From an uncultured Bacillota bacterium (lineage in GTDB: Bacteria; Bacillota_I; Bacilli_A; Culicoidibacterales; ZOR0006), in the NCBI GenBank assembly GCA_945956935.1, contig CAMFJD010000002.1:62001-126000 (forward strand): a DNA stretch of 64,000 nucleotides. The letters are read 5' to 3'. Of the stretch, positions 10,409 through 33,928 are shown in pieces. Each line of letters opens with the position of its first letter. Within the stretch, counting starts at the first letter, position 1. The position numbers were made by a program, and so were the translations under genes. Below the pieces are notes generated by a model, which worked only from the letters and a program-made list of their open reading frames with translations, had not been told where the DNA came from and searched no databases.

Positions 10409-11434
10409 ATGCGTGTTGAAGATTTTGATTTTGTGTTACCGGAGCATTTAATCGCCCAAACACCATTAGCACAGCGATCAAGTTCAAAATTGATGATTGT
10501 AAATAAAACTAATCAAACAATTGTACATGACGTGTTTAGTCATTTAATTGATTACTTACGAGCTGGTGATTGTCTTGTATTGAATGATTCGAAGGTTATT
10601 CCTGCAAGATTACATGGTGTGAAAGATCAAACCGGTGGTCATGTAGAATTGTTATTACTAAAAGAAACTCAGGTTAATCATTGGGAGGCACTTGTGAAAC
10701 CAGCAAAGCGTGTTAAAATTGGTACGCGTATAGTTTTTGGAGCAGGAGAACTCATTGCTGAATGTACACAAGTACTTGCAGATGGTGGACGCGAGTTCAA
10801 AATGGTATATGAAGGGATTTTTTATGAAGTACTTGACCAATTAGGGACTATGCCACTGCCCCCATATATTACTGAGCAACTAGAAGATCGTGATCGCTAT
10901 CAGACAGTGTATGCGAAACATCAAGGTTCAGCAGCTGCACCAACTGCCGGATTACATTTTACACCAGAGTTATTAACAGCATTACAAGCAAAAGGTGTAC
11001 AAATTGTCACTGTGACATTACATGTTGGGCTTGGAACTTTTCGACCAGTTGCCGTCGATACAATTGACGAACATACGATGCATTCAGAATATTATGAAAT
11101 GAGTGCTGAAACAGCTACAATATTAAACGAAGCGAAAGCGAACAAACGGCGTATCATTACAGTTGGAACAACATCAACAAGGACGTTAGAATCAATTATG
11201 AATTTGTATGGCACATTTAAAGCATGTAGTGGTTGGACAGATATTTTCATCTATCCAGGATATACATTCAAAGCAATTGATGGTTTAGTGACAAATTTTC
11301 ATTTGCCAAAATCAACACTCATTATGTTAATTAGTGCTTTTGCAAATCAGCAGTTGATTATGGATGCATATTATGAAGCAATTGAGAATGAGTATCGCTT
11401 TTTTAGTTTTGGGGACTCAATGTTTATTTATTAG
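10409..11434 (+). CDS. queA: S-adenosylmethionine:tRNA ribosyltransferase-isomerase
   Basis: The 341-residue enzyme transfers and isomerises the ribosyl group of SAM onto preQ1 in tRNA, giving epoxyqueuosine. Conserved segments seen are YELPEHLIA-like [25 protein letters not shown], the hallmark [23 protein letters not shown] and [17 protein letters not shown]. The length is normal. It sits between ruvB and tgt, the widespread Bacillota order. Together with tgt and the queT transporter at 21.8 kb it supports queuosine formed from salvaged preQ1. Confidence 0.96.
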
Positions 11435-11543: not shown

Positions 11544-12683
<1,140 letters not shown>

Positions 12684-18418: not shown

Positions 18419-19369
18419 ATGCAACAATTGTTAACTGACTGTTTACGATATGGTATAACTAAAAAAAGTCGAGATTTACACTTTATTCCTGAATGTGACA
18501 AAGTAGTTATTTCACAAAGATTGATGAGCAATCGATTAGAGATTATTCAAGAGCTATCGCTTGAACAGTATACCCAATTCACACGTTTTTTAAAATTTGA
18601 AGCACAGTTACAATTAGGTACAAAATTGCTGCAATGTGGTCAATTTACCCATTGTTGCGATCACGGTACTTACCATCTACGTTGTTCATTTGTACCAACT
18701 CAACATGGAGAAAGTATTGTAATCCGTTTACTAGATCGAGACACTCAACGTTCATTTCATGAATTAACTCCCTTTCATGCTGATCAACAATCACTTGAAT
18801 CATTAATCGATTATGAAGAAGGATTTATTGTTTTTAGCGGACCAACAGGGGTAGGAAAGACAACAACGTTGTATACGCTCATTCATTCATTACGAAAAAA
18901 TGGAAAAAGTGTCATTTCGATTGAAGAGCCAGTTGAGAAGCAAATTAATGGAGTAACGCAAGTACAAATTCAACCAGATATAGGTATCACCTACACAAGT
19001 GCGTTAGAAACTGCGTTAAGACATGATCCAGATGTGATTGTATTGGCTGAAATTCGAAGTGAACATGTATTACAGATGGCAAAGCGTGCGGCACTTACAG
19101 GTCACTTAGTAATTGCTACTATTCACAGTGGGAGTGTGAAACAATGTTTCGAACGATTGTATGATTTAGGAATACATGAGCGAGAACTGGCACTGATTTT
19201 ACGTTTTATCAGTTCACAGCAATTATATGTATGTAATGAATGCGTGTATGGAATATATGAGTATTTAACGCAATCACAGATTGACGATTGGTTTTCAGGA
19301 AAGAAGGTTGAGTATGAAACATTGGCGTCGAAAAAAGCAGCATTCACGCAAACAGCAAATTTTATATGA
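18419..19369 (+). CDS. comGA: Competence pseudopilus assembly ATPase ComGA
   Basis: This 316-residue secretion ATPase of the GspE/PilB type powers assembly of the transformation pilus on the inner face of the membrane. It has Walker A SGPTGVGKTTTLY (about residue 140), the Asp box ISIEEPVEKQINGVTQVQ, Walker B RHDPDVIVLAEIR and His box ALTGHLVIATIHSG. Like other ComGA proteins it lacks the long N-terminal domain and the tetracysteine zinc site of GspE. A perfect AAGGAGG lies eight bases before the start. It overlaps comGB by 56 bases. No ComK AT-box pair or Com-box was recognised upstream. Confidence 0.93.
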   Translation: MQQLLTDCLRYGITKKSRDLHFIPECDKVVISQRLMSNRLEIIQELSLEQYTQFTRFLKFEAQLQLGTKLLQCGQFTHCCDHGTYHLRCSFVPTQHGESIVIRLLDRDTQRSFHELTPFHADQQSLESLIDYEEGFIVFSGPTGVGKTTTLYTLIHSLRKNGKSVISIEEPVEKQINGVTQVQIQPDIGITYTSALETALRHDPDVIVLAEIRSEHVLQMAKRAALTGHLVIATIHSGSVKQCFERLYDLGIHERELALILRFISSQQLYVCNECVYGIYEYLTQSQIDDWFSGKKVEYETLASKKAAFTQTANFI

Positions 19370-20318
19370 ACGAGAACAGTTAGCGATTTTATTGCAAGGA
19401 ATTGAACAAGGGTATTCGTTAATGGAAAGTCTACAATGTATGAGTGCTTTCGCACCGCCATCACCATGGGAAGAAATGCAACACGCTATCCAAATAGGTG
19501 CTGATTGGGAAGCTTTGTTTGAATTACTCCGTTTTCGTTCATTTACGAAGCAGCTATTATGTTTTGAAAGTGAGTGGCAAGAGATTACTTTGACAGTTCA
19601 AAAAATTATTGTGCTACTTGATTGGGAACTTGAAATTCGAGAGCAACTTGGAAAAACGTTTGCGTATCCTGTAGTTCTCTTACTTATCATGGTGTTTTTT
19701 GCTTGTGTATTTGAATTTGGTCTGTTACCACAACTTGATTTTTTTATTCATGATCAAACGATCTGGCTATTTATTGTACCTAAGATGTTATTTTACTTTC
19801 TAATTATCTGTTCTATTGTATTAGTAACATCGCAATTTTATTTAAAAAATTGTTCATTTCAAAAAAAGAGAAAGATTTTTCAATGGTTTCAAAACAGGAA
19901 GCTCATTCAATTGATTATTTGTTTACGTTTAGCACTTCACTGTCAATTGACTCTAAACCAAGGGCAGCCATTAACAAGTGTATTTACGAAAAATGAACAT
20001 ACATCTGATTTTTTTGGACAACTGCTCAATAGCATGCACTGCGCATTAGCAAATGGTGAACAGTTACAGCAGGTTATGAAAAATCATGGATTTTGTGATG
20101 ATACATGGTTAAGTTTTTTTCAGTGGCAACCGACGAATGCTCAAATTTTAATTGCAAGTGAATTTTACTGGCATCATGGATTCCGCCAACTACAGCAATT
20201 AATTCAAAAATGGTGTCAGATAGGGCAAGTTATTTTTTTTCTGACTATTGGTATTATATTATTACAATTTTATCTGTCATTATTTTTACCTATTTTCGAT
20301 ATGATGTATGATTTTTAA
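19314..20318 (+). CDS. comGB: Competence pseudopilus membrane platform ComGB
   Basis: The 334-residue GspF/PilC-type protein has two cytoplasmic four-helix domains and three membrane segments (around residues 120-145, 155-180 and the last 30 residues). It probably holds the ATPase to the growing pilus. The first domain starts EREQLAILLQGIEQGYSLMESL. ATG 19314 is used because AAGAAGG lies six bases upstream; the long TTG start at 19281 lies inside comGA without RBS. The second domain diverges from typical sequences, which is common in ComGB. Confidence 0.88.
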   Translation: MKHWRRKKQHSRKQQILYEREQLAILLQGIEQGYSLMESLQCMSAFAPPSPWEEMQHAIQIGADWEALFELLRFRSFTKQLLCFESEWQEITLTVQKIIVLLDWELEIREQLGKTFAYPVVLLLIMVFFACVFEFGLLPQLDFFIHDQTIWLFIVPKMLFYFLIICSIVLVTSQFYLKNCSFQKKRKIFQWFQNRKLIQLIICLRLALHCQLTLNQGQPLTSVFTKNEHTSDFFGQLLNSMHCALANGEQLQQVMKNHGFCDDTWLSFFQWQPTNAQILIASEFYWHHGFRQLQQLIQKWCQIGQVIFFLTIGIILLQFYLSLFLPIFDMMYDF

Positions 20319-20335
20319 TATTGGAGGAACTAAAT

Positions 20336-20641
20336 ATGAGAAAACAAAAACAAGCAGGATTTACATTAAGTGAAATGATGGTTGTCATTGCAATCATTGG
20401 AGTGTTATTAATTATTATTTTACCAAATGCTTTACGTGTACTCGATACAGCGAAAGCTGAGGGCTGCTCGGCCTATATAAAAACAGTAGAAACACAGTCG
20501 CAACTATATTTGTTAGATGGACATGATAACTTATCAATTGATGCACTGTACGATAATGGGTATATTCCAGAAAAAACATGTCCAGATGGTCGTATTCTTA
20601 TTGTTGATGCGAATGGTGCAGTATCGGTTGTCGAAGATTGA
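20336..20641 (+). CDS. comGC: Major competence pseudopilin ComGC
   Basis: The 101-residue pilin precursor has a basic leader (MRKQKQAG) and the class III signal GFTLSEMMVVIAIIGVLLII. PilD/ComC would cut after the glycine, leaving phenylalanine 1 and glutamate 5. The mature part is about 93 residues, with two cysteines (EGCSAYIK and EKTCPDG) able to form a disulfide. TTGGAGGAA gives a strong RBS, as suits the most abundant subunit. ComGC polymers form the DNA-capturing filament. Confidence 0.94.
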   Translation: MRKQKQAGFTLSEMMVVIAIIGVLLIIILPNALRVLDTAKAEGCSAYIKTVETQSQLYLLDGHDNLSIDALYDNGYIPEKTCPDGRILIVDANGAVSVVED

Positions 20642-20643
20642 AA

Positions 20644-21099
20644 ATGGCAGGAGGTCAAGATAATCAGGGCTTCACATTAATAGAAATGGTTGTTGCTGTA
20701 ATTATAATAGGCATAATAAGTAGTATTACACCAGTTGTGATGAGTAAATCAGTACAAAATTATGAAATGAATCAATTTATTAATCAGTACCTTGCAGATG
20801 CGATTTTTGCGAAAAATTTTGCTCAATATATGAAAAAATCAGTAATAATAACTATTAATGCTGAGGCTAGAATGTACACTATGTATGATAACTTCACAAA
20901 GCCATTAATAGTACGGACGATACCGAAGTCTATTTGCTTTCCACAAAGAAATTTTGTAGTGAGGTATACTGGAACTGGTGCGATTAGTCAAGGACATACC
21001 TTATATTTTACAAATGAATCTGAGTGTTACATTGGTGCGGAATCAATGGTGAAATTAACAATGCCTGTTGGGAATTCAGTGTATGCAAAATCGAAGTAA
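20644..21099 (+). CDS. comGD: Minor competence pseudopilin ComGD
   Basis: The 151-residue precursor has the prepilin signal QGFTLIEMVVAVIIIGII near residue 10, with glutamate 5 present, followed by a long globular domain. Order and length fit ComGD, a minor pilin. It overlaps the comGC stop region (ATG 20644, three bases after the stop codon) without a clear RBS, so translation is probably coupled. The last 17 bases overlap the next gene. Confidence 0.85.
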   Translation: MAGGQDNQGFTLIEMVVAVIIIGIISSITPVVMSKSVQNYEMNQFINQYLADAIFAKNFAQYMKKSVIITINAEARMYTMYDNFTKPLIVRTIPKSICFPQRNFVVRYTGTGAISQGHTLYFTNESECYIGAESMVKLTMPVGNSVYAKSK

Positions 21100-21283
21100 T
21101 AATGAGCGTGGATTTTTATTGGTTGAGGTTTGTGTGGGTGTATTATTGTTAGTTTTACTTTCTCAAAGTATTTATGTATTTGTATTTTTTTACGGAGAAA
21201 CTTTGAAATTAGAACAGCAAAGTGAGGAAAAATATGAACAGTGGATTCGTGTTGAAAGGTTATCAGAAACAAGAAAATGGTAG
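21083..21283 (+). CDS. comGE: Minor competence pseudopilin, ComGE-like
   Basis: The 66-residue protein has ERGFLLVEVCVGVLLLVLLSQS, a class III prepilin signal with glutamate 5, and a short polar tail. It is shorter than usual ComGE (about 100). Assignment rests on position between comGD and comGF and on the signal. The start at 21083 overlaps comGD; the RBS is weak. Confidence 0.7.
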   Translation: MQNRSNNERGFLLVEVCVGVLLLVLLSQSIYVFVFFYGETLKLEQQSEEKYEQWIRVERLSETRKW

Positions 21284-21674
21284 CATCATGCTAGAATGCC
21301 TAGTTGCACTGTGTTGTTTAACAGTTATTATTGGAGGGACAATACCTCTTTATCAACTTGTGGCTAGGCAAGAGCAAGGTTACACATTGGCACAAATTCA
21401 AACAGTATTACCTATTTTAGTAGATGATCTTCAGGTGATGACGACCTGTGAACAGCGTGGAACCGGCTTATATATGACAAAGGTGAATGAGTATGGTGTT
21501 ATCGTTGATAAGGTTTATTATAAATGGGGAGACAAGCAGCTGATTCGCCAAAAAAATAATGGTTTTGAACGAGTTGCTAGTGGTTTTGATGGTGTATTTC
21601 AAGTGACTGAAACAGATGTGAATATTGAAATTGTGACAACATCAAAAAAATACCAACTGAAGATGAAACGATGA
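21234..21674 (+). CDS. comGF: Minor competence pseudopilin ComGF
   Basis: The 146-residue protein has a hydrophobic segment after NGSIMLECLVALCCLTVIIGG (around residues 20-40), a prepilin-like signal with Ser at +1 and Glu at +5, and a globular domain containing YYKWGDKQLIRQKNNGFERV, which matches the ComGF family. The start ATG 21234 has GTGAGGA upstream and overlaps the previous gene by 50 bases. It is the last gene of the uninterrupted comG run; a promoter for queT follows within 12 bases. Confidence 0.8.
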   Translation: MNSGFVLKGYQKQENGSIMLECLVALCCLTVIIGGTIPLYQLVARQEQGYTLAQIQTVLPILVDDLQVMTTCEQRGTGLYMTKVNEYGVIVDKVYYKWGDKQLIRQKNNGFERVASGFDGVFQVTETDVNIEIVTTSKKYQLKMKR

Positions 21675-21685
21675 AAGATTAATAA

Positions 21686-21714
21686 TTGTCAAAAGTGAGT
21701 GATTTTGATATAAT
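21686..21714 (+). promoter_or_regulatory. Strong promoter of the queT leader
   Basis: TTGTCA (21686-21691), 17 bases, TATAAT (21709-21714) with a TGA extension at 21706. Transcription should start near 21721, right at the first leader hairpin. Confidence 0.8.
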
Positions 21715-21719
21715 ATGAC

Positions 21720-21801
21720 AGCTATCTAAAAAATCATGATAGCCGCGGTATCAGAGAGTATATTAGTTATATACACCCGCGTAATCAAAACTAGAGAGGT
21801 G
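21720..21801 (+). promoter_or_regulatory. Candidate preQ1 riboswitch, atypical architecture
   Basis: The leader of queT folds into GCTATC/GATAGC (21721-21726 with 21738-21743), then CGCGG/CCGCG (21744-21748 with 21777-21781) enclosing GTATAT-TAGTT-ATATAC (21758-21774). The loop TAGTT (21764-21768) can pair with AACTA (21789-21793), right before the GAGAGGTG ribosome binding site, giving an H-type pseudoknot that could hide it. TACACCC before the 3' arm and AAAACTA in the tail match the preQ1-I aptamer of B. subtilis, but the loop is much longer. Class assignment is open; preQ1 response is inferred from the downstream gene. Confidence 0.65.
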
Positions 21802-21811
21802 TTTTTTCAAA

Positions 21812-22291
21812 ATGAACAGTAAAAAAATCGCATTGTATGGAGTAGTAGCAGCATTATATGTTGTACTCACAGTAATTATTGCCCCGTTATCATACGGACC
21901 ATTACAATTTCGTGTCAGCGAAATACTTGTAACACTTATCATGTTTGACTTAGGTTTTTCATGGCCAATATTGATTGGAACGGCACTTGCGAATTTCTTT
22001 TCACCTCTAGGTATGATTGATGTCATTTTTGGCACAGTTGCAACGCTTGTAGCAATTGGATCATATGTAGCGTGTAAAAAAGTATTACCAAGTGATAAGT
22101 TTTGGCAACAAGCTATTTATTTTGTGGTAACTTTTGGAATGGTTGGGATGTTTTTAATCGCAATTGAACTGAATATTGTTGAACAGTTACCATTATTTGA
22201 GACATGGATTACAGTAATGATTGGACAAGTAGCTGTCTTGGTTTTAGGCGTGTTACTGATGAAGAAAATCTATCCGCGATTTGTAAAATAA
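21812..22291 (+). CDS. queT: Queuosine precursor transporter QueT
   Basis: The 159-residue membrane protein has five to six hydrophobic segments and QueT (COG4708) features: AALYVVLTVIIAPLSYGPLQFRVSE near residue 12 and ANFFSPLGMIDVIFGT near residue 70. QueT is the substrate-binding S component of an ECF transporter that imports preQ1. The energising EcfA/EcfT module is not in the window. The leader upstream carries a preQ1-type riboswitch candidate. The gene sits between comGF and a ComGG-like ORF, an unusual place. Confidence 0.9.
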   Translation: MNSKKIALYGVVAALYVVLTVIIAPLSYGPLQFRVSEILVTLIMFDLGFSWPILIGTALANFFSPLGMIDVIFGTVATLVAIGSYVACKKVLPSDKFWQQAIYFVVTFGMVGMFLIAIELNIVEQLPLFETWITVMIGQVAVLVLGVLLMKKIYPRFVK

Positions 22292-22331
22292 ACGCATCGC
22301 AAAGGTATTGATCTAGAAGGAGCAATACGAA

Positions 22332-22526
22332 ATGAAGCAACGAGGATTTATCCTTATCTACTTATTGTTTTTGTTAGTAATGATCTCACAAGCATTACTT
22401 TATACTGTATTTGAATATGAACAATTGAAAAAAAGTCAATATTTTGATCAACAGTTTGAACAATTGCTCGAAAAATCATTTGTAAAGACTAGCAAAAGTA
22501 GTGGAAAATGCTACAATGAAGCTTAG
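22332..22526 (+). CDS. Short prepilin-like protein, possible ComGG
   Basis: The 64-residue protein has RGFILIYLLFLLVMISQALLY at its N-terminus, a prepilin-like hydrophobic helix with tyrosine at +5 where most pilins have glutamate. ComGG proteins often lack that glutamate. It is about half the length of ordinary ComGG. AGAAGGAG lies nine bases before the start, so it looks translated. A terminator overlaps its last codons. If it is ComGG, queT has been inserted into the comG operon. Confidence 0.55.
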   Translation: MKQRGFILIYLLFLLVMISQALLYTVFEYEQLKKSQYFDQQFEQLLEKSFVKTSKSSGKCYNEA

Positions 22527-33740: not shown

Positions 33741-33769
33741 TTGACAAATAATTAGTTTAGGAGTAGAAT
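33741..33769 (+). promoter_or_regulatory. Near-consensus sigma-A promoter
   Basis: TTGACA (33741-33746), exactly 17 bases, TAGAAT (33764-33769). It is one of the best promoter matches in the window and points at the 44-codon ORF at 33794. Confidence 0.8.
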
Positions 33770-33793
33770 GAATCTTGGAAATGAGGTACTCCC

Positions 33794-33928
33794 ATGCAGC
33801 AAGCAAAACCGCAGATAATGCTGATGACTTCTACAACTTTTTGTTGTGGGGTGATCAGTTTTTTTGTGGAAAATGTACGAATAAAAACACAAAAGGTAAA
33901 AGATGTTATGCTGCAAGCGAATAAATAA
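33794..33928 (+). CDS. 44-residue small ORF of unknown function
   Basis: The ORF starts MQQAKPQIMLMTSTTFCC, continues with a short hydrophobic stretch (CGVISFFV) and ends with a basic tail (VRIKTQKVKDVMLQANK). ATGAGGT about eight bases upstream is a fair RBS, and a near-consensus promoter lies 24 bases before the start. Its last 23 bases overlap the 3' end of the minus-strand methyltransferase gene. It could encode a small membrane-associated peptide, or the transcript could act as antisense RNA. I recognise no family. Confidence 0.45.
   Translation: MQQAKPQIMLMTSTTFCCGVISFFVENVRIKTQKVKDVMLQANK

Follow-up and report, generated by a model that had tools for sequence, protein, structure and literature searches.

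The queT Locus and Its Leader

The window analyzed here (64,000 nt from an uncultured Bacillota bacterium of the order Culicoidibacterales) carries on its forward strand a gene for a 159-residue protein (21812–22291) that a domain search assigned to QueT (PF06177, 112.7 bits, E = 2.3e-32), an importer of the queuosine precursor preQ1, as correctly identified in the earlier note. The queT leader is flanked by a comGF-like ORF upstream and by queT downstream. The gene apparently lies, with a promoter of its own, within a comG (DNA-uptake pilus) operon (18419–22526) whose comGF-like and comGG-like ORFs flank it; a similar pilin-like ORF is also located downstream of queT in G001, the sole other genome of the genus in the comparison set. 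The promoter (21686–21714, + strand) consists of a −35 element TTGTCA (21686–21691), a 17-nt spacer, and a −10 element TATAAT (21709–21714) preceded by TG. With 11 of 12 consensus matches it is a good promoter but not the perfect one of the earlier note, and G001 has a counterpart in the same place (TTGTTT-17-TATAAT). Farther along the window, a fluoride riboswitch is present at 33768–33840 (+ strand, 42.3 bits, over the Rfam gathering score).

The leader, likewise on the + strand, begins with a 5′ terminal hairpin, GCUAUC/GAUAGC (21721–21743; DNA strands GCTATC at 21721–21726 and GATAGC at 21738–21743), that directly abuts P1, a stem of 5 bp formed by CGCGG (21744–21748) and CCGCG (21777–21781) and closed by a G–C pair. 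The loop of P1 opens with UAUCAG (21749–21754), which corresponds in position to UAUCC(U)AG or UACUAG in short-loop relatives of the class and is read here as L1 plus a putative P2 5′ strand (UCAG, 21751–21754). It continues with a hairpin inserted in L2, GUAUAU-UAGUU-AUAUAC (21758–21774), and ends on AC (21775–21776) directly 5′ of the second P1 strand, predicted to provide a gatekeeper A and a ligand-reading C. Beyond P1 follow a 9-nt, A-rich L3 (UAAUCAAAA, 21782–21790) and CUAGA (21791–21795), the likely P2 3′ strand, which adjoins the ribosome binding site; the Shine–Dalgarno core GAGGUG (21796–21801), the same in G001, is 10 nt 5′ of the AUG (21812). All sequence elements named in the earlier note, including GCTATC/GATAGC, CGCGG/CCGCG, GTATAT-TAGTT-ATATAC, and AACTA (21789–21793), lie where it had placed them. 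Folding of the leader is only modestly above that of shuffled controls (z −1.6). No intrinsic terminator was found in the leader, so regulation, if any, is expected at translation.

Two further genes of queuosine biosynthesis, queA (10409–11434) and tgt (11544–12683), are present in the window, both scoring well over NCBIfam cut-offs, and the TGT is the bacterial equivalog, which uses preQ1. Matches to QueC reach only 20–25 bits in ORFs of 404–523 aa, which are best read as other ATP pyrophosphatases rather than a convincing QueC, and YhhQ is absent from the genome. Given TGT and QueA with neither a convincing QueC nor a YhhQ, this salvage-only genome must take up its preQ1, and no Q-precursor importer other than QueT was recognized in it. 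Feedback of preQ1 on queT translation would be the expected logic; queT of L. monocytogenes is under just such preQ1-I control (PMC12519234). G001 (L241) additionally encodes the Q-precursor importer YhhQ (PF02592, 146 bits), and no such riboswitch leader was found in front of that gene.

Conservation in the Sister Genome

The queT of G001 is 68% identical to that of the window, and its leader reads CCGCGGUAUCAG-CGA-GUGC-AGAA-GCAC-ACCCGCGUAAUCAAAACUAGAGAGGUG. The two leader cores, with the inner hairpin excluded, are identical at 44 of 45 positions; third codon positions of queT agree at 67 of 158 (42%). Judged from this comparison, the leader is real and conserved. The inner hairpin is GUAUAU-UAGUU-AUAUAC in the window and GUGC-AGAA-GCAC in G001, with two shared stem pairs changed on both sides and unrelated loops. 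Similarly, the 5′ hairpin keeps its structure and not its sequence, GCTATC/GATAGC being replaced by TTGTCACAG/CTGTGACAA (RNA UUGUCACAG/CUGUGACAA). On the strength of these replacements both hairpins are more than chance. The comparison indicates that the unpaired nucleotides around P1 carry conserved information, with the inner hairpin kept as a stem only. The core, P1 and P2 included, is the same in both genomes, so that P2 is without covariation within this two-sequence variant, and the minimum-energy nested fold of the G001 leader does not contain P1. The three stems of the earlier note thus survive in different ways: the 5′ and inner hairpins by changed sequence, and P1, invariant in the pair, by covariation across the class. 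The TAGTT/AACTA pairing is not conserved.

Genome Mining for Related Leaders

Standard models are silent at this locus. RF00522, RF01054, and RF02680 gave no match at E ≤ 10 over 21500–22000 (501 nt), no plausible match to any Rfam family was obtained over the same interval at that threshold, and an Rfam search of the whole window matched no preQ1 model. Across four genomes of the order, RF00522 returned noise only (12–19 bits), none of it at the queT leader. The earlier note had looked both to these models and to covariation in homologous leaders; the former recognize nothing, while P1 does covary in relatives from the class.

Those relatives were retrieved with custom covariance models. Applied to 395 class genomes, a model built from the two genus members (R1) retrieved, beyond the genus, two yhhQ leaders (G262 and G180) of the form CGCAG-UUCGAAACCAUC-CUGCG-UAAUCAAAACUAGGAGG. 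These share with the window the 13-nt tail UAAUCAAAACUAG, including the L3 that is also found in G001 and the CUAG that follows it, and score 28.1 and 26.7 bits with RF00522, under its cut-off of 39. The yhhQ leaders L022 and L023 carry a tail identical to that of the window. QueT is encoded in 170 of the 395 genomes, and about two-thirds of the approximately 110 queT leaders inspected display a short-loop preQ1-I-like pseudoknot directly upstream of the gene. A second model (R2), built from sequence sets including these leaders and run over 392 genomes, hit 55 of them; in 28 loci that were inspected, nearly all matches lay upstream of queT, yhhQ, or queC. When RF00522 was applied to 19 short-loop loci, four passed the gathering score and five more reached 28–35 bits, which identifies this family as preQ1-I. 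In this clade RF00522 does not suffice as a test, as it misses or under-scores many short-loop relatives. Among those unreported by it at E ≤ 0.5 are preQ1-I-like pseudoknots of queT leaders with UA..UAG or UUCCUUG loops (L093, L047, L160, L161, L170, L176, L082, L058, and L059).

Across 67 relatives, four of the five P1 pairs show changes in both strands, whereas the closing G–C pair never varies. In the P1 alignment, 97.9% of cells are paired and 90 are changed on both sides, compared with 25.5 after shuffling and at most 16 after sliding, figures that the model-fitted alignment biases in this direction. Loops in the class sample measure 10 to about 18 nt, and the added hairpin occurs in the two genus members only, whose loops reach 28 nt (window) and 23 nt (G001).

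The same 67 short-loop leaders, none from the genus of the window, served as a leave-this-genus-out model (R3) that was searched unfiltered; its members had been found upstream of queT, yhhQ, and queC, and its alignment was model-guided, a first MAFFT alignment without the window having shifted P1. In the window, the queT leader ranked top (20.2 bits, E 0.038; runner-up 15.9), as it did at the G001 queT locus (20.9 bits, E 0.0015). The window site was again top in its whole 1.84-Mb genome at an E of 1.1, which is not significant genome-wide and by itself suggestive only; what makes the match convincing is its exact position at queT. Without the hairpin, the loop reduces to the 11-nt UAUCAG(A/C)GAAC, to be compared with UACUAGAGCAC in L093 (8 of 11 identical) and UAUCCUAGGAAAC in L174. 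The inserted hairpin probably hides the queT leader from RF00522, the standard detection model.

Two genomes of the same order (G002 and G003) encode queT without a recognizable element, and the queT leader of G003 (L011, 1250–1500) contains another long structured region, ACUGUG...CACAGU, that matches none of the preQ1 models used. Two queT leaders of family f19 (L126 and L130) display a palindromic 10-nt loop (UAGCGGCUAC / UAGCAGCUAC) in a P1-like stem with a tail of UAAUCAAAAUAAGG or UUAACUAAAAUAAGG, and are possibly another preQ1-I variant. A DNA search of plasmids and a protein search of genome contigs gave no close leader. Among viral contigs, the pattern GGTATCAGNGAGTN{2,30}ACACC matched 48 times, with AAAAC[TA] downstream in six cases and the remaining structure in none, and the pattern CGCGTAATCAAAACTAG gave zero matches. 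A hand-made descriptor produced long-loop chance matches in about one-fifth of leaders and was not counted on its own as evidence for the window.

The Pseudoknot Partner of the Tail

Two segments of the P1 loop could pair with the tail. The earlier note had drawn a 5-bp pseudoknot between the hairpin loop TAGTT and AACTA, which, were it functional, would define a different preQ1 RNA architecture with UAGUU contacting AACUA beside the ribosome binding site. The five pairs are indeed perfect in the window, and as an isolated duplex UAGUU/AACUA (−1.4 kcal/mol) is stronger than UCAG/CUAGA (about 0 kcal/mol). The pairing is not conserved, however: the G001 hairpin has the loop AGAA, which cannot pair with AACUA even though the tail is the same, and the hairpin loop was rejected as pseudoknot partner on this ground. 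On sequence grounds it is probably fortuitous, and the assignment appears wrong or at best private to the window genome. Moreover, UCAG in the first part of the loop is conserved in both genomes, and relatives in the class pair that region with the tail, so that the alternative architecture is largely refuted and now very unlikely.

In the P2 register suggested by the class, the CUAGA tail would instead have UCAG as its conserved partner. This pairing is possible in both genus members, whose sequences are the same here. Class-wide, loop–tail complementarity amounts to 376.5, against 350.7 ± 11.2 in swapped pairings, and was higher than in 1968 of 2000 trials (32 of 2000 were as high). P2 of the Bsu and Tte RNAs, whose structures are solved, is equally weak as an isolated duplex.

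Comparison with Known preQ1 Riboswitches

Taken together, the queT leader is very probably a translational-off, type II-like preQ1-I riboswitch with a hairpin embedded in L2, an assignment grounded in the observed positions of its elements, their conservation, the covariation of P1, the kept stems, and the gene context. The type II layout used for comparison is that of PMC11625349 and PMC10622847, and the type II signature is an A then a C before the P1 3′ strand, acting as gatekeeper and specificity nucleotides, respectively (PMC11625349). Both genus members have AC, not UC, at this point. With type II preQ1-I RNAs (RF00522; Tte, Bsu), the leader further has in common a predicted H-type pseudoknot layout, the 5-bp P1 closed by G–C, an L1 of three nucleotides (UAU here), the 9-nt A-rich L3 followed by the CUAGA tail next to GAGGUG, a putative short P2 reaching the Shine–Dalgarno sequence, and a Q-precursor gene downstream, queT being of the biosynthesis or transport type expected. 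The inner G of the P2 5′ strand CAG would pair with the first C of the tail in the manner of G11–C30 in Tte. The L3 of Tte is UUAACAAAA.

The variant departs from type II in a hairpin of 17 nt (window) or 12 nt (G001) in L2, between MGA and AC, and hence in a loop well beyond the 10–12 nt or so of the solved RNAs. It differs as well in the bulged A of the P2 3′ strand CUAGA and in going unrecognized by RF00522. The short-loop leaders of queT, yhhQ, and queC in the class (e.g., L022, L093, L047, and L170) share its P1, an L1 beginning UA, its L3, and its tail, but their loops of 10–18 nt have no added hairpin. In Bsu, L2 is dynamic, largely solvent-exposed, and variable in length (PMC10639078), which fits an insertion there. 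In the papers covered by a literature search, a hairpin insertion in L2 of preQ1-I is not described.

Of the two possibilities that the earlier note had raised, a divergent preQ1-I is supported by the matching P1, AC signature, A-rich L3, and CUA tail, by recovery of the site with the leave-genus-out model, and by its position upstream of queT. Positing a different preQ1 subclass is unnecessary, the core being that of a type II preQ1-I RNA to which a single hairpin has been added. preQ1-II (RF01054) likewise controls queT translation and has a 5′ hairpin (P1) and a pseudoknot in which an additional hairpin (P4) is embedded; this additional hairpin, though, lies between P2 and the Shine–Dalgarno strand, its pocket and consensus are different, and its model finds no match here. 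preQ1-III (RF02680) is also a queT leader with extra hairpins, yet is about 100 nt long, with two pseudoknots and a pocket at a distance from the ribosome binding site, and its model too is unmatched.

A separate ligand specificity was also considered, in which a preQ1-I fold senses another Q-related compound (queuine, preQ0, or a Q nucleoside) and the hairpin forms part of an altered pocket. The missing Rfam match, the adjacency of the hairpin to the ligand-reading AC, and a conserved MGA that separates P2 from the hairpin and has no counterpart of known role would fit such a class. Nevertheless, none of the pocket-type features of type II preQ1-I is missing and the TGT is of the preQ1-using bacterial type, leaving this reading little probability. 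A 5′ UTR that senses no ligand and merely bears stabilizing hairpins, compatible with the 5′ terminal hairpin typical of mRNA-stabilizing ends and with the modest folding signal, is hardly credible when the most conserved nucleotides (44 of 45) are the unpaired L1, L3, and tail and these have matches in preQ1-I elements that precede Q genes in other places.

Proposed Mechanism and Implications

In the type II-like preQ1-I riboswitch favored here, P1 (CGCGG/CCGCG) and the short P2, in whose presumed register UCAG pairs with CUAGA and leaves one A bulged, would form an H-type pseudoknot. preQ1, the presumptive ligand, would be recognized through the C in the AC that precedes the P1 3′ strand, and the A-rich L3 would sit in the minor groove of P1. 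The ligand-stabilized P2, lying directly against the GAGGUG Shine–Dalgarno sequence, would block ribosome loading, and imported preQ1 would thereby shut down its own importer, QueT; control is accordingly presumed to run in the off direction. L2, a solvent-exposed and variable loop in known preQ1-I RNAs, appears to have taken up a hairpin immediately 5′ to the conserved AC. Since the stem alone of this hairpin is conserved and not its loop sequence, it most likely serves as a spacer, or else as a folding or kinetic aid, pointing away from the pocket. More tentatively, and with the balance somewhat against it, the hairpin may be a functional third stem, of independent origin from P4 of preQ1-II, that tunes docking kinetics or ligand selectivity.

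preQ1-I is a model small riboswitch whose covariance model rests on a short, fixed loop. Current annotation would be overlooking preQ1-I elements of this class, among them many with short loops that fall under the Rfam cut-off. An extra helix next to the ligand site would reveal to what extent the preQ1-I fold can be enlarged and would provide a natural place for grafting sensors. If the hairpin does act as a third stem, the smallest known riboswitch class would both tolerate and use an embedded helix near its pocket.
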